DNA of 64,000 nt from positions 1-64,000 of the forward strand of contig NZ_SDPU01000009.1 of NCBI RefSeq assembly GCF_004168035.1. The letters are read 5' to 3'. Shown here in pieces: positions 40,529 to 55,354 of this stretch. Numbering within the stretch: position 1 is the stretch's first letter; each line of letters begins with the position of its first letter. A model generated the notes under the pieces. The model saw only the letters and a program-made list of their open reading frames with translations. It did not search any database and was not told where the DNA came from. The stretch is from Nocardioides iriomotensis (GTDB lineage: Bacteria > Actinomycetota > Actinomycetes > Propionibacteriales > Nocardioidaceae). The position numbers and the translations under genes were made by a program.

Positions 40529-41035
40529 ATGCGCAGGAACGAGGCGGAGTTCGCCGCCTTCGTCGCGGCTCGCCGCCCGCACCTGAGACGGGTCGCCTAC
40601 GCCCTCTGCGGCGACTGGCACCAGGCCGAGGACCTCGTCCAGACAGCGCTGGCCAAGCTCTACGTCGCGTGGCCGCGAATCCACAAGGCCGGGGCCGAGG
40701 AGGCCTACGCGCGTCAGGTGATCGTCCGCGCCAACATCGACGAGTCCCGCCGTCCGTGGCGACGCGAGCGGGCTTGCGCCGAGCAGCACGACCGGCCGGT
40801 CGCAGCCGATATCTCGGTCGAGGACCGCAGCGAGCTGGTCGCCGCGCTGCAGCAGCTGACCCCGATGCAGCGAAGAGCGGTCGTGCTGCGGCACTGGCTG
40901 GACCTGTCGGTCGAGCAGACCGCGGCCGAGCTCGGCGTCTCAACCGGCACCGTCAAGGCCCACACGTCCCGCGGTCTGGCCAACCTGCACTCGGCGCTGA
41001 ACGTCGACGCGTCCGCCCTGAGGAGAACCCGATGA
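40529..41035 (+). CDS. SigE-family ECF sigma factor
   Basis: The 168-residue protein has region 2 (FVAARRPHLRRVAYALCGD, AEDLVQTALAKLYVAWPRI) and region 4 (LQQLTPMQRRAVVLRHWLDL, VEQTAAELGVSTGTVKAHTS) of the actinobacterial SigE-family (ECF group) sigma factors. CAGGAGG before the ATG is strong. The ATGA overlap with the next gene, a single-span membrane protein, makes a sigma/regulator pair. Confidence 0.92.
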   Translation: MRRNEAEFAAFVAARRPHLRRVAYALCGDWHQAEDLVQTALAKLYVAWPRIHKAGAEEAYARQVIVRANIDESRRPWRRERACAEQHDRPVAADISVEDRSELVAALQQLTPMQRRAVVLRHWLDLSVEQTAAELGVSTGTVKAHTSRGLANLHSALNVDASALRRTR

Positions 41036-42018
41036 CCGAGCTGGACCCGACCGACTTCTCCGAGCTGCTGAACCGCTCGTTCGGTGCGGAGCCGCCGCCT
41101 GCAGACCCGGCCGCCGACCTGCGGCGCGGGCGCCGCCGGCTGCTCCGCCACCGGACCAGCACCTCGCTGACGGCCGTGGCAGCGATCGCGGTCATCGCCG
41201 GCGGCACCACCATGCTGCCCACCCTGGGTGTGAACCGGACCGTGGGCCCGGCCGCGGACGGCGAGAGCGTGACGCGCCCCGTCTCCGCCGAGGAAACCGT
41301 CGCGACGTGCCTGCGCAAGGAGAACGTGCTGCACGTCGAGGGCGACGACTACATGACCGAGGCGGCCTCACTGCGGCTGATGGGCCGCGAGCCGCGGCTG
41401 ATGAGCTCGTCGTCCGACGCCGACCGGACCGTAGCGACGCTGCTCTCCGCGGACGGCAAGTACTGGGGCTCGTGCCAGTTCAGGAACCAGCCGCACGCCA
41501 ACGTCAAGAACATGATGAACGTCTTCTCGACCAAAGTCGCATTCCCGACAGCGACGGTGGCCGGGGTCGAGGCGTACCAACCGGACAGCGCGTCCGACCC
41601 CCGGCTGGTCGCCACCGCGGACCCCCCGGTGCCCCAGCTCGAGGTCGACTGCCCCGCCAGCGAGCCCGAGGAGACGCCTGCGCGGTACGCCGAGCACGCC
41701 GCGTGCCCGGAGTTCACGATGTACTGGAACGACCGACGTCCGGCCAACGTGGCCGCCGTCCGGATCATCGCTCCGGACGGCGTGTCGTCCTGGGCCGACG
41801 TAACGCACGGCTATCTGTCGTGGACCTACCGAAGCAAGATGACGCCCGAAGTCGCGGCCGACCTCGCACACGGTGAGGTTCCGGGCGCGCAGCGGGTCGT
41901 CTTCTACGACCGGCTTGGCAAGGTACTGGTCGACGACCGCTACCCCGGTCAACTGCCCCAGGACGGCGACCTCTCGATCGCGAACTTTCCGTCGCTCGCC
42001 TGGTGGCTGAAGGACTAG
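41032..42018 (+). CDS. Membrane protein coupled to SigE-type sigma factor, possible anti-sigma factor
   Basis: The 328-residue protein has a short cytoplasmic N-terminus (FSELLNRSFGAEPPP), a basic stretch, one transmembrane helix near 45-65 (SLTAVAAIAVIAGGTTML), and a ~260-residue outer domain with four cysteines (ATCLRK, WGSCQF, DCPASE, AACPEF). This topology fits a regulator that holds the sigma factor at the membrane and senses an outside signal. No zinc-binding anti-sigma motif is visible, so the role is inferred from position. Confidence 0.75.
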   Translation: MTELDPTDFSELLNRSFGAEPPPADPAADLRRGRRRLLRHRTSTSLTAVAAIAVIAGGTTMLPTLGVNRTVGPAADGESVTRPVSAEETVATCLRKENVLHVEGDDYMTEAASLRLMGREPRLMSSSSDADRTVATLLSADGKYWGSCQFRNQPHANVKNMMNVFSTKVAFPTATVAGVEAYQPDSASDPRLVATADPPVPQLEVDCPASEPEETPARYAEHAACPEFTMYWNDRRPANVAAVRIIAPDGVSSWADVTHGYLSWTYRSKMTPEVAADLAHGEVPGAQRVVFYDRLGKVLVDDRYPGQLPQDGDLSIANFPSLAWWLKD

Positions 42019-45622: not shown

Positions 45623-48600
45623 TCAGATACGGACGGGCGTGGGTGGCTTGGCGTATTGCTTCCAGCCTCCGGCCACGGGCGTTGGCATGTTGATGGGGTT
45701 CAGGACGAGGCTTTCGTAGTCGGTGAGTTCTTCGGATGCTTCGACGTCCACATACTTGCGCAGCGTCGGGGCCATGGCGAGTCCCAGTGAGCAGCCCCAC
45801 AGGTGCGCTTTCCCGTTCGCGGAGAACACCGCTGAGGGTGCGGCGGAGAGGGCCGCGTCGAGGTCGGCGGTAGTGATGACGACTTCGCCGGCTGGTTCGT
45901 TCGCGTCGCCCTTCTTGTTCTCCCAGCCGTACTGGAGGAACCAGCTGTCGTCGTTGGAGTGTCCGAAGTAGTCGAGCCGCTTGACCTTGACTTGGGCGCG
46001 GTCTATCTGGGGCATCTGCCATTGCGAGGGGGCCTTGCGAGAGGGCATGCGGGTGTACCAGTCGTACCAAGTGCCGGTGCGGTCGGTGGCGGTCGGTCCT
46101 CCCCCGCCCATGTCTTCCTCGTCGTGCTTGTCGAGCAGGTGCCGCCAGTGTTCACCGGTGAACTGGCCGAGGGTCAGGTAGGACAGGATCTGGCCAGGGT
46201 CGGTGACCATGAGCAGCTTGACGAGGACGTTGGGAACCTTTGCGGGTCCGCCGAGGGTCTTGCCGTGCACGATGAGGCGGGGCAGGTCGTGGAGGCGGGT
46301 GAGCCACATGTCTGGGTCGTGCGGGCGTGCCTCGTAGGTTTGCCCGGGGCGAAGCGCTTCCGTCGTGGTGCGCATGAGAATCTCGTGGTCGATGCGTTCC
46401 TCATTGACCGCTTGGCTGACGAAGGCCGTGGACGGCCGTTTGGGTGCGCTGGCAGGTGTTGGACGTGCGATGACCGGGATGTTGCCTTGTTCGGTGCGCC
46501 GCACCATCGGGTCGTAGGGGTCCTTGTTTGCCACCCACGGGGAGCCGAGCCACTTCATCGTGTTCCATGGGGACGCAGCCCAGTCTCGTTCCGAGCGCGC
46601 CGCGTAGGGCGGGTAGTAGACGAGGATGGTGAGGATGTCGCCGTCGGCGAGCCTGGCGATCTTGTTGCTGTACAGGCGCGGGATCGATTCGATGAAGTTC
46701 GCCCAGTACAGGTCGTGGGTGATGTTGCCCTGGTTGGGGTTGCAGAAGGCCGCGACTCCGGCGATGTTGGTTGGGGCCGTGTTCAGCGTGAAGGTGAATG
46801 ACCCGCTGCCCGCCGGTGTTTCGATGTCTTTGCCGAATCCGTTGTAGAAGTTGCTGGGACCGCCGGCGACGATGATGTGTTCCACCGGCTTCCGGCCGCC
46901 TCCTCCGCTGGCGAGGATGATGTCGGCGTCGCCGAAGGCCGGACCGGCGGCCTCGTCGAGTGGCTCGCCGTCACCGAACGCGACACGAACCTCACCTTCA
47001 GCAGTGCTGGCTTCGATGGTGCTGCCCGGTTGCATGCGGGCGGCGTGGATCGCGTCGACGATGGCTTCTTCTTGGTGCGGTCGTGTCGGCCGGGGCGTGG
47101 TGTGCATCTCTTCGAGGACGTGCTGGGCTTGCTCGGTGGCCTGCTCGGGTGTGACGAGCTGCTTCTGCTTGGCCCGGTCGATGGACGCGAGCTTCTGGTC
47201 TGCGGTCTTGGTGGCGTGTTCTTGTGCGGCCAGTTCTGCGAGCTTGAGCTCTGCTGCCTTGTTCCCGAACGTGGTCGCCAGGGACGCCGCAGTTTCGAGG
47301 CCCGCGCGTGCGTTTGCCTGGGTACCGGCGAGACCGGCCATGTCACGGAACGCGTTGGCGTTGGTGAGCGCCCCGAGCACCTCGGACAGGCCGGCTGGGG
47401 CGGGAGCCTCGGGGGCGTTCTGCAGGTTGATGAGGGTCGCCGGGAACGCGGTTGGCGTGGTTCCTTGGGGTTCGGCACGCCGCGACGTGAGCAATTCAGG
47501 TGGGAGGTCGGCAAGGGCGGGGTCGGGGTCCGCGAGGACCCAGTCGGTCGACCCGTAGTGCTCCTCGAGCGCCTCACACTCGTCCATGACGGTTTGCGCG
47601 TAGAGGCCGTCGGTGGGCAGGGAAAGGTAAAGGGGTTCGCTGACGGCTTGTTGCTGTGCGTAGTAGTTGTGCAGGTTGGCGGGGGTGTCGACACCGGGCA
47701 TGCCAAGGAACGACCCGGCGGAAACTCGATACACCAGGGCGTTTCCCATGATTGCGATTGGCTCGCGTTCGACAACGGATGCCAGGCTTACGCCGTTGGT
47801 GCCAGGCACGTAGTAGCCGTCGAGCATCATGTAGAGCAGGTCGCGGTCCATCGTCCACCAGATGAGCTTGTGGTAGTACTCGCGGTGCTCGTTAAGGTGC
47901 TGGACGAGTTCTTGCACGGAGCGTGTGATCTGGGCCCGCAGGTCGACACGTTCCCAGGCTGTCGGCGGGGCGCTGACCGTCGCGCCACTCGCGTCGACGG
48001 CGCCGGTGAGGGGCTGGATAAGGTCCAGGGCGCCTTGTTGAACGGCGACGGTGCGCTCGAAGGTGTCGGTCTGGTAGGTGAAGGAGATACGGACAAGGTT
48101 GGCGACGGAGCCGGGCGTGAGGCCTTGGGTGGCGTCGACGCGCAAGGTGGCGAGGCTTTCACGCGTCAGCGTTGTGCCGGGAGGGATGGGTGCGGAGAAG
48201 TCGATGCGAACGGTGCGGTTGAACGAGTAGCGGCTAGCCAGCGTGAAGTCCGCGAACAGCGGCTGGTTGCCGACTTTGAGGGTGAGAGTATTCGCCCAGT
48301 TGGCCGCAATTCCGGGGGCGTGTTCGGTCTGGAACAGGCGGTCCCGGACGGCCCGCGCCTGTTCGAGCAGCCGCGCGTGAATGGCGATGGCGGGCAGCGG
48401 CAGGAAGACGCGGAGGACTGCCCAGGCTTCATCGTCGAATTTGTCGTCTTCCTTGTCCTTGGGGCGTTCGACGGCGAGGTCGACGTACAGCGACCCGTGG
48501 ACGTGCCGGACGGGCTGGTCGGAGCGGCGCCCGGCCACGATGCTGGAGTAGGCGAAGCCAGTGAAGACGTCACCTAGGTTGTCGAGGGCCGGCTGGAGCC

Positions 48601-50617
48601 GGCGGTCCTGAAGCCCGGTAGCGAGTGTGTCGCGCCAGCGGTAGGCGCGCGGGATGGTGAACGGTTTGACGGCCAGCGGGACAAACACGCACTCCCTGAC
48701 CGCCGCGAACTCGGTGGTGACCTTCAGGTGCCGGAGGATTTGGTGGTAGATGACAGTGAGCGAGTGCGCGTAGTTCGGGTTGCGCACGACTTCGGTCGTG
48801 CCGGTTACCGTCTCTTCCTGTGCGACTTCGTTGACGACGGTGCTCTCCTGGCGTCGCAGGGAGTCTCCGAAGCGCCGGATGCTGTCGCGGAGTCGTTGCT
48901 CTTCGCTGGCAGACGTGCGCCTGCCGCCCTGCTGCTCAGATGAGCTGCTCGCGTTGCTGTGGGCGGCGCCTCCGCCGATGACGAAACCGGGGAGTGCAAA
49001 CCCGGCGCCACCAGCGGCGGCCGTGACGTCGGAATGGCTCTCTCCGCGCGCCCACTCGGAGAGGCTGCCGCGGACCGCGTTCTCGTAGTCTCTTTCTCGA
49101 CTCGTGGCGTCAGAGACCCGTTCGGTGACCTCGGTGACCTCGGTGCGGCGGCTGCGTTCGAGTCGTTCCCATTCGATCTTCTGGATGCGCTTGACCTGTC
49201 GGGGTGTGAGCGTGAGGGTCTTGGCGACATTCCCGAGGGAGTAGCCGTTGGACCGCCATCGCACGCGGAACTCGATGATGTGCCCGCGCGCCACGGTGAC
49301 GGCTTGGTAGCGGGCCGCGTCCCCCTCCCAGTCGAGTGGGTGGTCGCCGTCCAGCGCGGATCGTCCTCGGCTGAACTTGGAGAGGAAGTCGAGGTACGGC
49401 TTGGGCAGCGAGTGAATGCCGAACTCGGGGGTGAGGGTTGATAGGAGGCTGGGCTCCGGTAGCGCGCTCAGGCGGCTGCGCGCCGAGGTTGCCACTCGTG
49501 CGATGCGGCTGACGATGCCGCGCGGGCCGCGTGGGTTACGGGGCCGCGGCGGCACTGCAACTGGATGGATGACGTCAACGACGGGCAGGGCACCCGTTCG
49601 GACCGTGCCCTCGGCGCCAATGGCCGGTTGTTCGGTGCGAAGGATGGTAAAGAACGCTCGCTCGCTGAGAATGCGTTCCGGGTTGGAGAACGGTCGGCAG
49701 TACTCACCGGGGTCTTCGGTGAAGACCTGTGGGTTGTCGGCGAGTTCGGCGTCGTCGGTGGCGGTCGGTGTGCGCCCTGGAGCAGTAACTGTGTCTGTGC
49801 CGCTGGTTGTGGCTGGTTCAGGGAAGACAGGCAGCGTGACGATGAGCGGCGTGCGGAGTGGCTTGGAGAGATCATCGGTCACGAAACCGATGGCGCCGCG
49901 TGTTCCGATGAGCCACCACAGCCAGCCGGAGGTCGTCTCGGACATGAAGCGGTGGCGGAACCGGCCATCGACACCCACAGTGGCGCCCTCCCATGCGGCG
50001 GCAGCGGGCGCCTGCGTCTGGTCGGTGTTGACCCACACGATCGTGGTGGTGCGGGCGGTGTTCGACTGGAACAGCTTGTCCAAGCCAAGCGCGCTCCAGG
50101 TGGCGGCATCCTTCACCGGCGCAAGCACCAAGGTCGCGAGTGAGAACGGGTAGGCGAGGTCACTCGTCGCGGCGAACACACCAACTCGTTCCATCGTGTC
50201 CGGCCCGGCGGCCGGCTGGGGAAGGCTGGAAGTGGCAGCAGCGAGGTCATTCGCGTCCAGGTCAACCAGGATAGAGCCGTCGGCCGTGGGCGTTCCCACG
50301 GGCTTAGATGCTGCAACACGTCCAGTTCGGTCCAACACATTGAGGGCTGCGGCGGACCCCGGGGCCGCGTCCTCGACAATGATCGATCCGCGACCATTGG
50401 CATCGAGCTCACCTCGAACGGTGCTGGAAATCGTCGACGTTTCGGCACCGCCAGTCCGGGTCACAGCACGGACCTGATCTTCGCCGCCGTTACCCCCGCC
50501 TGCTGCTTCGATGTGGGCGACGTAATTCAGTTCGATGGCGACGCCAACAGCCTGCGCTGCCTGGACCCCCTGCTTCAGCCGAACATCAACGGTCAAACGC
50601 ACTCGTGGCTGCGCCAT
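45623..50617 (-). CDS. Giant 1,664-residue protein with caspase-like C-terminal domain
   Basis: No signal peptide is seen after ATG 50617 (GGGGGAG upstream). The N-terminal ~130 residues are beta-rich and Gly/Ala-rich. Around 440-640 lie YQAVTVARGHIIEFRVRW, YSLGNVAKTLTLTP, a charged Arg/Glu coiled-coil stretch, a glycine-rich hydrophobic hairpin-like segment near 545 (GFALPGFVIGGG) and SLTVIYHQILRHLKV. From memory these resemble a family of large uncharacterised bacterial proteins. A long helical segment rich in Ala/Glu/Lys occupies ~1150-1290. The C-terminus has DYFGHSND with His 1553 and HLWGCSLG with Cys 1609, a His/Cys dyad as in caspase-like (clan CD) peptidases. Codon use is less GC-biased than neighbours, suggesting transfer. 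Confidence 0.75.
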   Translation of the reverse strand: MAQPRVRLTVDVRLKQGVQAAQAVGVAIELNYVAHIEAAGGGNGGEDQVRAVTRTGGAETSTISSTVRGELDANGRGSIIVEDAAPGSAAALNVLDRTGRVAASKPVGTPTADGSILVDLDANDLAAATSSLPQPAAGPDTMERVGVFAATSDLAYPFSLATLVLAPVKDAATWSALGLDKLFQSNTARTTTIVWVNTDQTQAPAAAAWEGATVGVDGRFRHRFMSETTSGWLWWLIGTRGAIGFVTDDLSKPLRTPLIVTLPVFPEPATTSGTDTVTAPGRTPTATDDAELADNPQVFTEDPGEYCRPFSNPERILSERAFFTILRTEQPAIGAEGTVRTGALPVVDVIHPVAVPPRPRNPRGPRGIVSRIARVATSARSRLSALPEPSLLSTLTPEFGIHSLPKPYLDFLSKFSRGRSALDGDHPLDWEGDAARYQAVTVARGHIIEFRVRWRSNGYSLGNVAKTLTLTPRQVKRIQKIEWERLERSRRTEVTEVTERVSDATSRERDYENAVRGSLSEWARGESHSDVTAAAGGAGFALPGFVIGGGAAHSNASSSSEQQGGRRTSASEEQRLRDSIRRFGDSLRRQESTVVNEVAQEETVTGTTEVVRNPNYAHSLTVIYHQILRHLKVTTEFAAVRECVFVPLAVKPFTIPRAYRWRDTLATGLQDRRLQPALDNLGDVFTGFAYSSIVAGRRSDQPVRHVHGSLYVDLAVERPKDKEDDKFDDEAWAVLRVFLPLPAIAIHARLLEQARAVRDRLFQTEHAPGIAANWANTLTLKVGNQPLFADFTLASRYSFNRTVRIDFSAPIPPGTTLTRESLATLRVDATQGLTPGSVANLVRISFTYQTDTFERTVAVQQGALDLIQPLTGAVDASGATVSAPPTAWERVDLRAQITRSVQELVQHLNEHREYYHKLIWWTMDRDLLYMMLDGYYVPGTNGVSLASVVEREPIAIMGNALVYRVSAGSFLGMPGVDTPANLHNYYAQQQAVSEPLYLSLPTDGLYAQTVMDECEALEEHYGSTDWVLADPDPALADLPPELLTSRRAEPQGTTPTAFPATLINLQNAPEAPAPAGLSEVLGALTNANAFRDMAGLAGTQANARAGLETAASLATTFGNKAAELKLAELAAQEHATKTADQKLASIDRAKQKQLVTPEQATEQAQHVLEEMHTTPRPTRPHQEEAIVDAIHAARMQPGSTIEASTAEGEVRVAFGDGEPLDEAAGPAFGDADIILASGGGGRKPVEHIIVAGGPSNFYNGFGKDIETPAGSGSFTFTLNTAPTNIAGVAAFCNPNQGNITHDLYWANFIESIPRLYSNKIARLADGDILTILVYYPPYAARSERDWAASPWNTMKWLGSPWVANKDPYDPMVRRTEQGNIPVIARPTPASAPKRPSTAFVSQAVNEERIDHEILMRTTTEALRPGQTYEARPHDPDMWLTRLHDLPRLIVHGKTLGGPAKVPNVLVKLLMVTDPGQILSYLTLGQFTGEHWRHLLDKHDEEDMGGGGPTATDRTGTWYDWYTRMPSRKAPSQWQMPQIDRAQVKVKRLDYFGHSNDDSWFLQYGWENKKGDANEPAGEVVITTADLDAALSAAPSAVFSANGKAHLWGCSLGLAMAPTLRKYVDVEASEELTDYESLVLNPINMPTPVAGGWKQYAKPPTPVRI

Positions 50618-50925
50618 GGCTCCCCCGTCCGATGAAGTACAGCGGCTTCTACGTTCAGGTTCGCGGCGGCAAGACACGCACGCAATGACCCGAGTGGGCC
50701 AGTCGCAGGCCTTGCGATTGGCGATCTGGGCCCGAAAGTCGTCATGGCTGACGACACAAACTCGGATCGCCGTGCCTTCGGGTGTTCCGCGCCAAGCGGC
50801 AGCATCACTTTGGCCTGTGCACTCGAACATCAGCCCCTGGCCACTTCAGGGTGGCGACGGAACAGCTGCCGAGGCACCATCAACGTCTATGCGAGCTAGA
50901 CCGGCTTTTCCGTGCAGGAGTGCCA
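50618..50925. promoter_or_regulatory. Divergent promoter region of the giant gene and its neighbour
   Basis: The 308 bases separate two outward-facing starts. Open frames extend into it from both sides but with non-coding composition. I see no clear operator dyad. Confidence 0.4.
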
Positions 50926-52102: not shown

Positions 52103-52822
52103 TCAGCACGTGCCCCAGATGCCGCGGTGGGCGCCCTTGGCCATGGTGGCGGCCTTCTTGTAGCCGCTGGTCCGCTTGAAGGGGTTGTTGTTGTAGACGT
52201 AGACCGTGGCGTGGCCGAAGTAGACCTGCTGACGGTTCACGTCCTTCCCGGTCGACTTCTTGTGCACGTAGCGCAGCAGACGCCCGTACCGGTCCTTGAG
52301 GTCCTGCGTCGGGTCGGAGTACATGACGACCTTGGTGCCGATGGGCAGGATCCTCTTCAGACTCGCCGACGCCTCGGGGCCGCCGCACTCGGTGCCGCCG
52401 TAGACCTCGGGGGTGTCGATGCCGATCAGTCGGACGTCGGGCGTGCCGCCGGTCGCGAGGCGGACCTTGATGGTGTCGCCGTCGGTCACCTTGATCACGA
52501 TGGCCGACTGGGTCAGGGTCGAGCCGCCGCCGCTCCCGGACTTCGGGTCGGTGCTGGGCTGGCCTCCGCCGCCGGTCGACCTCTTGTACAGGCAGGGGCA
52601 TGGGTTGGACTCGCAGGCGATCCCGTCGCCCTCGGCGTCGAGGCCGTGCGGGTCGCTGCTGGGGCCGCCGTTGTTCAGAAAGAAGATCTGGGCGGCGCGC
52701 TGGGTAGCGAAGTCGCCGCAGTCCCGGTCGTAGGCCTGGGCCGGCGCCATCGTCAGGACGCTGAGGATGCCCGCGAACAGGGCAAGGATGGGCATGGCAA
52801 AGAGGGCGCGCGAGCGCGTCAT
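52103..52822 (-). CDS. Secreted thermonuclease with Excalibur calcium-binding motif
   Basis: The 239-residue protein starts with a signal peptide (LFAMPILALFAGILSVLTMA, cleaved near AQA-YD). An Excalibur motif follows at ~33-70, ending GLDAEGDGIACE. After a Gly/Ser-rich linker comes a staphylococcal-nuclease domain with VTDGDTIKVR, RLIGIDTPE, KDRYGRLLRYV and AHRGIWGTC, including the catalytic Arg/Glu/Arg positions. It probably degrades extracellular DNA or RNA with Ca2+. In SNase-Excalibur proteins the order is usually reversed, with Excalibur C-terminal. Confidence 0.88.
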   Translation of the reverse strand: MTRSRALFAMPILALFAGILSVLTMAPAQAYDRDCGDFATQRAAQIFFLNNGGPSSDPHGLDAEGDGIACESNPCPCLYKRSTGGGGQPSTDPKSGSGGGSTLTQSAIVIKVTDGDTIKVRLATGGTPDVRLIGIDTPEVYGGTECGGPEASASLKRILPIGTKVVMYSDPTQDLKDRYGRLLRYVHKKSTGKDVNRQQVYFGHATVYVYNNNPFKRTSGYKKAATMAKGAHRGIWGTC

Positions 52823-53070: not shown

Positions 53071-53394
53071 TCAGAGCTTCTCGCAAGCGATGCCGTCGTT
53101 GTCGCGGTCAAGGTCGTACTGACCCTGGCCCATAGCCGCGCCAGGCGTACGTGGACCATCGTTCAGGAGGTAGACCCTGGTATTGCGCGTGAAGTTGGTG
53201 ACGCGCTCTGACGACGTCTTATCGACTGCGCCACGCCGACCAACGCCATGCTTGAAGTCCCTGTTGAGGGACTTGCACGACGGGTACGTACGGTCCTGGC
53301 CCTGGTGGTCCGCCTCGGCCGGTCCGCTGATGGAGAGTGTGGTCGTGGCGGTGATGGCGAGAACGGCGGCGCTCAACTTGGTCTTGGTGTTCAT
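53071..53394 (-). CDS. Small secreted Excalibur-domain protein
   Basis: The 107-residue protein has a signal peptide (LSAAVLAITATTTLSISGPAEA) and ends in an Excalibur motif: YPSCKSLNRDFKHGVG followed at the C-terminus by YDLDRDNDGIACEKL (DxDxDGxxCE). The pairing cysteines are present. The motif binds calcium and occurs on secreted actinobacterial proteins. It is upstream of the Excalibur nuclease in the same direction, 248 bases away. Confidence 0.82.
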   Translation of the reverse strand: MNTKTKLSAAVLAITATTTLSISGPAEADHQGQDRTYPSCKSLNRDFKHGVGRRGAVDKTSSERVTNFTRNTRVYLLNDGPRTPGAAMGQGQYDLDRDNDGIACEKL

Positions 53395-53728
53395 GGCTCC
53401 CCCCGATGGGTCTATTGACTGCCAATGCACGATCTACTCACGTTAGGCAGACGGTCGCGGCTCTGTCCTGGTTTCTGGGAACGGGTGCAGCGTTCTCGTA
53501 AGTCTCGAAATGGTGGTGACGTCGCCAACTGAAGAAGCAAATCCCACAAGGGATGAGACTGCGCTGCACCGGCCGGTCGGCACCCGTAGTTCAGCGGCTG
53601 ATCCTTGCTCCGGCTCGCGGCGGTTACACGCACTGACTGAGGGGCAGCGTCCGCGGCTCTCTGCCAAGGATTCAGGACCATGCCTGGTCGAGCCGTGACT
53701 CCGCATCCAAGGACTGGCCGACGCCGAT
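53395..53728. other. 334 bases without a gene
   Basis: Upstream region of the Excalibur gene and downstream of the EAL gene. A tRNA-like stretch at 53581-53602 is not a complete tRNA. No terminator was recognised. Confidence 0.4.
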
Positions 53729-55135
53729 TCAGGTGTCTGCGGGGGTGGGTCGCGTTTCGAGTTGCCCGACTGCGGGCGCCGGGTCGGGTAACCAGCGTCG
53801 GTTCAGCCAGTCATGCCATTCGGCTGGGTTGATCGAGGGGTGCGCGATTGCATAGCCCTGGGCCTGGTCCACCCCGAGGGTGCTGAGGAGGTCGAGCTGA
53901 GCGGCTGTCTCGGTGCCTTCGCCGAGGACGACGGACCCGGTTTCGAGTGCGACGAGGACCAGCGCCGTGACCAGGGCTCTGCGCGCCCGATCGGACTCGA
54001 GGTCCACGATGAGATCTCGGTCGAGCTTGATGATGTCGGGACGCAGGTTCAAGACGTGGTTCAGCGACGAGTACCCCGCTCCGGTGTCATCAATGGCGAA
54101 CCGCACTCCTCTTGTTCGTAGTTGGGTCAGAGCGGTGTTCAATTCCGCGTAGTCCGCGACCCGGTCGTGTTCGGTCAGTTCGATCACCAGCCGAGTCAGG
54201 TCGACCCGGGTGCGGAGCAGACGGGCGCGAAATGTTGCGTCGAGGAGTAGCGCGGGGCTCGCGTTGACCGAGAGGTAGCCGGTCCCGCGCATCGTGCGCA
54301 GCACGTCCACCGCGGCGAAGAAAGTCAGTTCGTCGAGCTCGCGGGTCAGCCCGGCGGCCTCGGCGTCTTGAAACCAAAGTCGCGGACCCCGACCGTCGCC
54401 GAAGCGCGCCAGTCCTTCGGCGCCGACCATCCGGCGGGACTCAAGGTCAATGATCGGCTGGAGGGCCACCCTGACCCGTCCGTGGGACAGCAGATCCAAC
54501 ACCCGGCCGCGTGCCCTCAGCGCGCCGTCGTGCCCTGCCGAAGAAGTGTCCACGCGGCGTCTAGTGCCGCGGAATCCAAAGACGCGTCCACGCCTGTCGC
54601 GCATCGGCACCCCGGCACCGGACAGCCACACCGCATGGCCGTCGCGGTGGCGCCACCGCAGTTCGAGTCGGCCCCACGGTGCCGCGTCGTCCCTCGCCAC
54701 GCCCGCAGCCGCGCCGAGCCCGCCCGCCGCCAGTTGGCGCGCGTCCTCATCGACCAGCAGGTCCATCGACTGGCGACCCACGAGTTCGCTGGGTGAGTAG
54801 CCGAGCAAGGCTTCGACGCCGGGGCTCGAGTACGTGATGACACCGTTGGTGTCGCTCTCCCACAACCAGTCCTCGGTGGTGCGTGCCGTGGCGTCCAGCT
54901 CCTCGCCTCGCCGCTGCAGCTCATGATTGGAGAGGCTGAGCCAACGCCCGACGAGCATGACGCCGGCGATGAGCACGACACCCGTGCCGGCGCCGGAGAT
55001 CGCCAGCAGAACCGGAGCGCTCCACCACCGGCCATGCCTGAGGCCGGCGAACTCGTCCATCGCCAGCATCACGGTGAGCGTGACGTCGAGGACCCCAACG
55101 GCAACCAGAAGAACTGACCAGCGGTCGAACCTCAT
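53729..55135 (-). CDS. Membrane PAS-EAL protein, putative c-di-GMP phosphodiesterase
   Basis: The 468-residue protein has two N-terminal transmembrane helices (SVLLVAVGVLDVTLTVMLA, APVLLAISGAGTGVVLIAGV), a PAS domain at ~85-200 (WESDTNGVITYSSPGVEALL) and an EAL domain at ~220-455. EAL landmarks are QPIIDLESRRMVGAEGLARF (EGL in place of EAL), SVNASPALLL, IELTEHD, IDDTGAGYSSL (T for the usual F), IIKLDR and GEGTETAAQ. All metal and catalytic residues seem present, so hydrolysis of c-di-GMP to pGpG is likely. No GGDEF domain is present. ATG 55135 follows GGAAGGG. Confidence 0.85.
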   Translation of the reverse strand: MRFDRWSVLLVAVGVLDVTLTVMLAMDEFAGLRHGRWWSAPVLLAISGAGTGVVLIAGVMLVGRWLSLSNHELQRRGEELDATARTTEDWLWESDTNGVITYSSPGVEALLGYSPSELVGRQSMDLLVDEDARQLAAGGLGAAAGVARDDAAPWGRLELRWRHRDGHAVWLSGAGVPMRDRRGRVFGFRGTRRRVDTSSAGHDGALRARGRVLDLLSHGRVRVALQPIIDLESRRMVGAEGLARFGDGRGPRLWFQDAEAAGLTRELDELTFFAAVDVLRTMRGTGYLSVNASPALLLDATFRARLLRTRVDLTRLVIELTEHDRVADYAELNTALTQLRTRGVRFAIDDTGAGYSSLNHVLNLRPDIIKLDRDLIVDLESDRARRALVTALVLVALETGSVVLGEGTETAAQLDLLSTLGVDQAQGYAIAHPSINPAEWHDWLNRRWLPDPAPAVGQLETRPTPADT

Positions 55136-55354
55136 CACGAACGCCCTTCCAAGGCCTCCACGAGCGGAGCCGAACCCGTCGTCACCGCAGCGGCACGGCT
55201 GACGCATGACGTATCACCCCAATCATGCCGAAACCGGTACCAACAGGGAACCCACGGCTCCCAACCCTCCACTGAGCCCGCTGGACGCTGAATGATGATT
55301 ACGAGCCCTGGTCGTGGGTATCGGCCCCGACGAAACGGTGCGCAAGGGGGACAG

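Follow-up and report, generated by a model that had tools for sequence, protein, structure and literature searches.

A giant protein of Nocardioides iriomotensis with a scattered, conserved scaffold and an exchanged C-terminal module: a candidate polymorphic-toxin-like effector

The first 64,000 nucleotides of contig NZ_SDPU01000009.1 of Nocardioides iriomotensis (the whole of this stretch is referred to below as the window) harbour one giant gene, which raises the question of what a protein of 1,664 residues may do when, with a cut-off of E 1, nothing in Pfam, NCBIfam, PHROGs or the PDB sequences matches it. The initial annotation had likened its size and modular end to polymorphic toxins or abortive-infection effectors, and had taken a His/Cys pair near the C-terminus for the mark of a caspase-like (clan CD) peptidase. 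The open reading frame (ORF) was confirmed at its full length. Its start codon, as judged from the sequence, is not certain: the frame stays open further upstream to an in-frame ATG at 50830, which would add 71 residues (1,735 aa). The protein is the sole match of its kind within the 4.7 Mb genome of N. iriomotensis.

The relatives of the giant protein provide most of the answer. A tblastn search with the whole protein found them in 27 plasmid records and one record of a phage collection, and a search with a four-sequence alignment identified 43 loci in genome contigs which share the scaffold, their best segments having 28-60% identity. These include Marinobacter, Alteromonas, Paracoccus, Roseibium, Pseudomonas and Acidovorax, but also Mycobacterium, Planobispora, Nonomuraea, Ornithinimicrobium and Demequina; the scaffold is found as well in metagenome-assembled genomes (MAGs) labelled Chloroflexi and Acidobacteria, and in one labelled Nitrososphaera, the latter being a short, possibly misbinned contig. 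Used singly as query, the whole sequence matched nothing in genome or viral contigs, and alignment scans of viral contigs for the scaffold were equally negative. The only relative from the phage collection (L004; L and G numbers denote the loci and genomes of this analysis) was rejected as a phage gene, the record resembling, by its ORFs as inspected by eye, a fragment of a bacterial chromosome. Carriers are sparse, with at least 2 of 296, at least 5 of 147 and at least 2 of 396 sampled genomes (N. iriomotensis included), all of these counts being lower bounds because two to three first-look candidates were scored per genome. Among the publications listed in literature searches, none describes the scaffold in its title or abstract opening, and the family, widely scattered across phyla, is apparently undescribed.

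The similarity ends before the C-terminus. In all 43 matches it stops at or before query residue 1256, in the four closest relatives (51-60% identity) at residues 1171-1225, and none of the 43 reaches the part containing the FGHS and LWGC motifs. The initial annotation had raised the question whether homologues of the N-terminal part carry different C-terminal modules, and they do. The family comprises 64 ORFs, nine of which were excluded from the Pfam scan of the tails (L008, L029, L049 and L052, with tails shorter than 100 aa; the near-copies L015, L025 and both of L043; the short ORF of L046), so that 55 tails and that of the window protein were scanned at E up to 0.01, a single tail being able to match several families. 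Among these 56 tails, matches were obtained to Peptidase_C70 (10), OmpA (8), DUF2272 (6), PETase (4), Peptidase_C39_2 (3), Tae4, Peptidase_M15_4 and Abhydrolase_3 (2 each), and DUF5675, Beta-lactamase2, Chlorophyllase, DUF3238 and DUF5828 (1 each); the window tail matched no family. Further tails were labelled SLT-like, GH19-like, HExxH metallopeptidase, papain-like ("CGP") or caspase-like on the basis of motifs, without a family match. Clustering by blastp grouped the tails into sets of 15, 11, 10, 4, 4, 3 and 2 and into singletons, to which the window tail belongs.

To place these tails on the history of the scaffold, a quick tree of 56 scaffolds was used, from which the near-copies L015, L025, L030 and L043, the divergent L008 and ORFs shorter than 850 aa had been dropped, and in which L028 is a fragment. 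The label of each member was assigned from clusters and motifs; Pfam supplied the counts alone, in agreement with the labels. The 15 labels require 25 changes on the tree (the least possible number being 14), or 21 when "other" is left out, and these changes among named tails indicate that tails are swapped. Seven close Marinobacter scaffolds, for instance, end in OmpA (5), DUF2272 (1) or M15 (1) tails, and neighbouring members from Alteromonas, Paracoccus and a gammaproteobacterial MAG carry DUF2272, caspase-like and HExxH tails. The caspase-like label requires three changes, forced by the starred branches of the tree, and two of the three copies are 77% identical. The window scaffold itself groups with L028 (beta-lactamase-like) and with the DUF2272 members L004, L031 and L033 (support 100). 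Sequence comparison shows in this way a scaffold of ~1,200 residues conserved across distant bacteria, the C-terminal module of which has been replaced repeatedly by unrelated enzymes or peptidoglycan-binding domains. This is the architecture of polymorphic toxins, in which exchangeable C-terminal domains, unrelated to one another, are joined to a conserved N-terminal part, and the likeness proposed initially is well supported.

Two or more scaffold copies occur in eleven distinct loci (L043, a near-copy of L042, not counted). Nine of them follow one pattern, with an alpha/beta-hydrolase-like tail on the first copy and a C70-type tail on the second; in L034 an M15 tail is combined with a metallopeptidase-like one, and the copies in L046 are of other kinds. 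In tandem pairs of the hydrolase/C70 pattern, the two copies are separated by a small conserved ORF of ~94-107 aa (L032, 14882-15166; L035, 6833-7156; L036, 5885-6202; L037, 14858-15142), the L032 copy of which has no Pfam match.

The scaffold was modelled with AlphaFold2 from an alignment of 47 sequences (mean predicted local distance difference test score, pLDDT, 69; predicted template modelling score, pTM, 0.49). The ten-residue mean pLDDT amounts to 87-96 over residues 641-920 and falls below 50 at 499-588. In agreement with the beta-rich N-terminus of the initial annotation, the model begins with two domains resembling Ig-like pilin domains, followed by very long strands at 443-470, 475-502, 585-612 and 618-647. 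The glycine-rich uncharged stretch which had been described between these is real and recurs in relatives (the region 505-590 holds the longest uncharged run of the sequence in 36 of 47 aligned sequences), whereas its flanks, 443-502 and 585-647, once read as a charged coiled coil, are modelled as the long strands. The helical stalk was likewise recovered, with confidence that is partly low. Residues 703-884 resemble the PLAT/C2-like domains of lipoxygenase (VIA-align Z 8.7 with 6.0 A over 121 aligned residues, and Z 8.6 with 3.5 A over 113) and of pancreatic lipase-related proteins (Z 7.3 and 7.1), the two highest values slightly exceeding the tool's level for common arrangements; this region has no Pfam match. 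In a Foldseek search, the first six entries are aerolysin (best E 5e-5, probability 0.25, template modelling (TM) score 0.04), followed by pilin (PitA), Cry51, lysenin and other beta-pore toxins, and these weak matches are driven by the modelled long strands. A BFVD fold search with the scaffold gave a single entry below E 0.001, which covers 271 columns. A signal-like hydrophobic stretch within the first 60 residues was found in none of the 47 aligned sequences, some of which are trimmed or begin upstream of the true start. Taken as a model, the scaffold is probably a membrane-engaging carrier of C-terminal enzymes.

We regard the giant protein, with moderate confidence, as a polymorphic-toxin-like effector; its toxin role, target, pore formation, peptidase activity and delivery are inferred. 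The Ig-like N-terminus would space or dock the protein, the PLAT/C2-like domain would engage lipid, and the long strands with their glycine-rich uncharged hairpin would insert into the target membrane. In this way the C-terminal enzyme would be displayed to the target or enter it, and could there cut wall, lipid or protein. Because there is neither a signal-like N-terminus nor a contractile-sheath or Hcp match in the genome of N. iriomotensis, exit from the producer by lysis or by an unrecognised exporter is our working guess. A more far-reaching version, which we offer as a tentative and rather doubtful proposal, is that of a one-protein delivery device, released without a dedicated secretion machine, docking through its Ig-like and PLAT parts, forming a beta-hairpin pore and carrying an exchangeable enzyme, the same chassis serving bacteria of many phyla, Gram-negative as well as Gram-positive, while payloads are swapped between lineages. 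A carrier that really crossed membranes unaided would offer a compact chassis for protein delivery, distinct from the secretion systems known so far. The family in any case brings many giant genes that lack annotation under one logic, a fixed carrier and an exchangeable enzyme, which suggests functions for the tails and supplies new candidates for antibacterial enzymes.

Several observations weigh against the effector reading. The tail labels partly follow the tree, 25 changes comparing with a shuffled mean of 40.3 and a number as low being reached in 0 of 200 shufflings, so the swapping is repeated rather than free. The Foldseek support for a pore is weak at the values given above, and the hairpin lies in a region with pLDDT below 50. 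No credible small ORF was found just downstream of the window gene. An immunity-like neighbour common to the family was sought and none was found, partner genes being seen for two tail types alone, and the gene downstream of the Tae4-tailed member L050 has no match to Tai4.

Partner genes were looked for among neighbouring ORFs, whose calls in GC-rich loci are rough, and the near-copies L015, L025, L030 and L043 were left out of the clustering. The widest neighbour clusters span four loci, and one of these is, by eye, a general ABC-type ATPase. All three caspase-like members have a small related gene directly downstream (L016, 111 aa; L027, 86 aa; L040, detected by tblastn), the L040 and L027 genes being 64% and 36% identical to that of L016. 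Since the scaffolds of these three members do not form one clade, the small gene travels with the caspase-like tail, as an immunity gene would. On the other side, a gene lies directly upstream of the scaffold in members of one clade (L045, 7200-8402; L047, 7098-8474; L050, 7110-8336; L051, 7189-8487; L003, 5161-6318); four of these genes form one blastp cluster, and OmpA is matched by the L003 gene and, very weakly, by the L050 gene.

Whether the tail of the window protein is a peptidase is a separate matter. Both residues are present as described, His1553 in FGHS and Cys1609 in LWGC, 56 residues apart. For residues 1230-1664, neither Pfam nor the PDB sequences gave a match at E up to 10, and plasmids, phages and viral contigs contained no relative; the matches in genomes stay at chance level, with 23 of 296 genomes at E up to 0.1 in one sample (N. 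iriomotensis among them) and, in another, a single genome of 398, at 9.6e-4 and spanning 96 query residues. A blastp comparison of residues 1206-1664 with the family loci (ORFs of at least 150 aa) was negative at E up to 1, and a single-sequence model of 1230-1664 did not fold (pLDDT 30) and is uninformative. A loose H[GS]...[GAS]C expression, written after the motif had been seen, matches 7 of 439 genes of at least 200 aa in the loci and in positions 30001-64000 of the window; four of the seven are family members (the window protein, L016, L027 and L040) and the other three look, by eye, spurious. A tighter His/Cys expression matches none of the same 439 genes, the window protein included. 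In view of these counts, the pair alone is no proof of a peptidase. In the three relatives with caspase-like-looking tails, His-Gly is followed after 12 residues by Gly and then by a hydrophobic run and Cys; the window tail has a hydrophobic run, His-Ser, 11 residues to Gly and, later, a hydrophobic run and Gly-Cys (in LWGC).

The tail would be an orphan enzyme of ~435 residues, most likely a cysteine peptidase using His1553 and Cys1609, a proposition to which we assign about an even chance. A caspase-like protease is one possibility for it, though not the only one; the clan CD call of the initial annotation is plausible, and is neither supported nor refuted. The opposing explanation, that FGHS and LWGC are a chance pair in a tail with another enzymatic or binding function, is a serious one, which we place only slightly below even, and it is compatible with the other explanations considered here. 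It draws on the lack of a homologue, a profile match or a usable model, on the failure of the tighter expression, and on hhalign, which detects no sequence link between the window tail and the three caspase-like tails (probability 2.5%); it has to contend with the order and setting of His and Cys, which by eye resemble those tails, and with the presence of cysteine peptidases among the other tails of the family.

As to how the protein would reach its target, it could be the cargo of a contractile injection machine, either an extracellular contractile injection system (eCIS) of the Photorhabdus virulence cassette (PVC) type or a type VI secretion system, with the scaffold as the loading or spike-associated part and the tail as payload. 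OmpA-tailed toxins have been assigned to the PVC route in the passages of a survey that deal with them (PMC3482391). In G404, an eCIS cluster (sheath, CIS_tube, GpD-like hub, AAA ATPase) starts ~8.5 kb after a distant member, the sheath lying ~12 kb after it, and an Hcp-family gene directly follows L004 and L031 (PF05638) and L033 (tblastn), which form one clade. However, the N. iriomotensis genome has no match to the sheath family PF04984 or to PF05638. At E up to 0.001 a sheath match occurs in 6 of 28 genomes (5 over the cut-off) and is absent from 22, N. iriomotensis among them, while Hcp is found in 11 of 31 genomes and absent from 20. Moreover, in G436 the member and the sheath are on different long contigs, and members occur in mycobacteria and other actinobacteria. 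Some relatives may thus rely on a contractile machine; for the window protein no sign of one is visible, and we consider this route unlikely there. eCIS-type clusters are present in three carriers of distant members (L075-L076 in G404, L078 in G436, L079 in G289), their closeness to the member being shown in G404 alone.

A housekeeping envelope protein, placing wall hydrolases, OmpA domains and proteases on the producer's own surface, would agree with the Ig-like pilin-type domains and with the many tail families that, by their generally known functions, act on or bind peptidoglycan. The absence of a signal-like N-terminus from the aligned sequences, whose starts are approximate, the sparse distribution and the exchange of tails between close scaffolds make it quite improbable. 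Caspase-like domains occur in abortive-infection systems, yet the role of a cytoplasmic suicide effector found no support and is very improbable: PADLOC-DB 2.0.0 gives a single chance-like match to PglZ (E 0.018) at scaffold residues 52-105, outside the tail, peptidoglycan-directed tails would presumably have no substrate in the cytoplasm, and none of the ten neighbours scanned against Pfam belongs to a recognised defence family, four of the ten having no match at all.

The features of the effector candidate and of its divergent neighbour are collected in Table 1. In accordance with the less GC-biased codon use noted initially, the giant gene has a GC content at third codon positions (GC3) of 0.80, the two downstream genes having 0.90 and 0.92, and a horizontal gain would fit this lower value. 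These two, lying directly downstream, code for an ordinary pair of a sulfatase and a formylglycine-generating enzyme (PF00884, PF03781; 42674-43687 and 43739-45244, reverse strand). The divergent gene on the other side gives weak matches only, in 2 of 146 other genomes; it is a possible partner of the giant gene and could be part of the same island. Beyond it lie genes for a staphylococcal-nuclease-type protein with an Excalibur-like motif (52103-52822), a small Excalibur protein (53071-53430) and a PAS-EAL protein (53729-55207), all on the reverse strand. On the forward strand at 40529-42018, an extracytoplasmic function (ECF) sigma factor gene overlaps the next gene, which has no Pfam match and is perhaps an anti-sigma or envelope partner.

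Table 1. Features of the giant gene and its divergent neighbour (positions refer to the window)
Feature	Residues	Position	Strand	Basis or remark
Giant gene		45623..50617	-	1,664 aa; ATG at 50617, stop ending at 45623
Conserved scaffold	1 to ~1205-1225, linker to 1229	46931..50617	-	similarity to relatives
Predicted Ig-like/pilin-type beta domain 1	4-130	50228..50608	-	model; VIA Z ~5-7 (4-270 against Ig-like pilin domains), within the level of common arrangements
Predicted Ig-like/pilin-type beta domain 2	140-270	49808..50200	-	model; SpaA Z 6.0, 3.8 A, 103 aligned; same level
Four very long predicted beta-strands	443-647	48677..49291	-	model; weak Foldseek matches to beta-pore toxins
Glycine-rich uncharged hairpin, presumed membrane-inserting tip	531-560	48938..49027	-	aligned sequences
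PLAT/C2-like domain (predicted)	703-884	47966..48511	-	VIA-align; high pLDDT
Long helix (stalk, predicted)	1097-1151	47165..47329	-	model, partly low confidence
Variable C-terminal module	1230-1664	45626..46930	-	no detectable homologue
His1553 codon (FGHS)	1553	45959..45961	-	sequence
Cys1609 codon (LWGC)	1609	45791..45793	-	sequence
Divergent orphan gene, 211 aa		50941..51576	+	no Pfam match; GC3 0.72

Among known systems, the TANFOR polymorphic toxins of Bacteroidetes, as portrayed in the relevant parts of their description (PMC7073777), are likewise large proteins with a conserved N-terminal part and many C-terminal toxin domains, including peptidoglycan hydrolases. They are, however, almost exclusive to Bacteroidetes, ~87% of them have a predicted Sec signal, and downstream immunity genes are frequent, whereas the present family spans many phyla, has no signal-like N-terminus and, in the window, no immunity gene was found adjoining. 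According to a 2012 survey, polymorphic toxins can carry caspase-like or OmpA domains at their extreme C-terminus, a position shared by such tails here, and the survey's passages on these toxins give no account of the present scaffold (PMC3482391). Within the family, the caspase-like tails of L016, L027 and L040 share with the window tail the scaffold, the position and the order of His and Cys, but have no detectable sequence link to it, and the downstream partner gene is theirs alone. With toxins of the aerolysin/lysenin type, the top entries of the Foldseek search, the giant protein has in common the long strands with a glycine/serine-rich uncharged hairpin; the TM scores amount to ~0.03-0.06 on the query length, and the giant protein is far larger, adding PLAT-like and Ig-like parts and an enzyme to what would be the pore-forming element.
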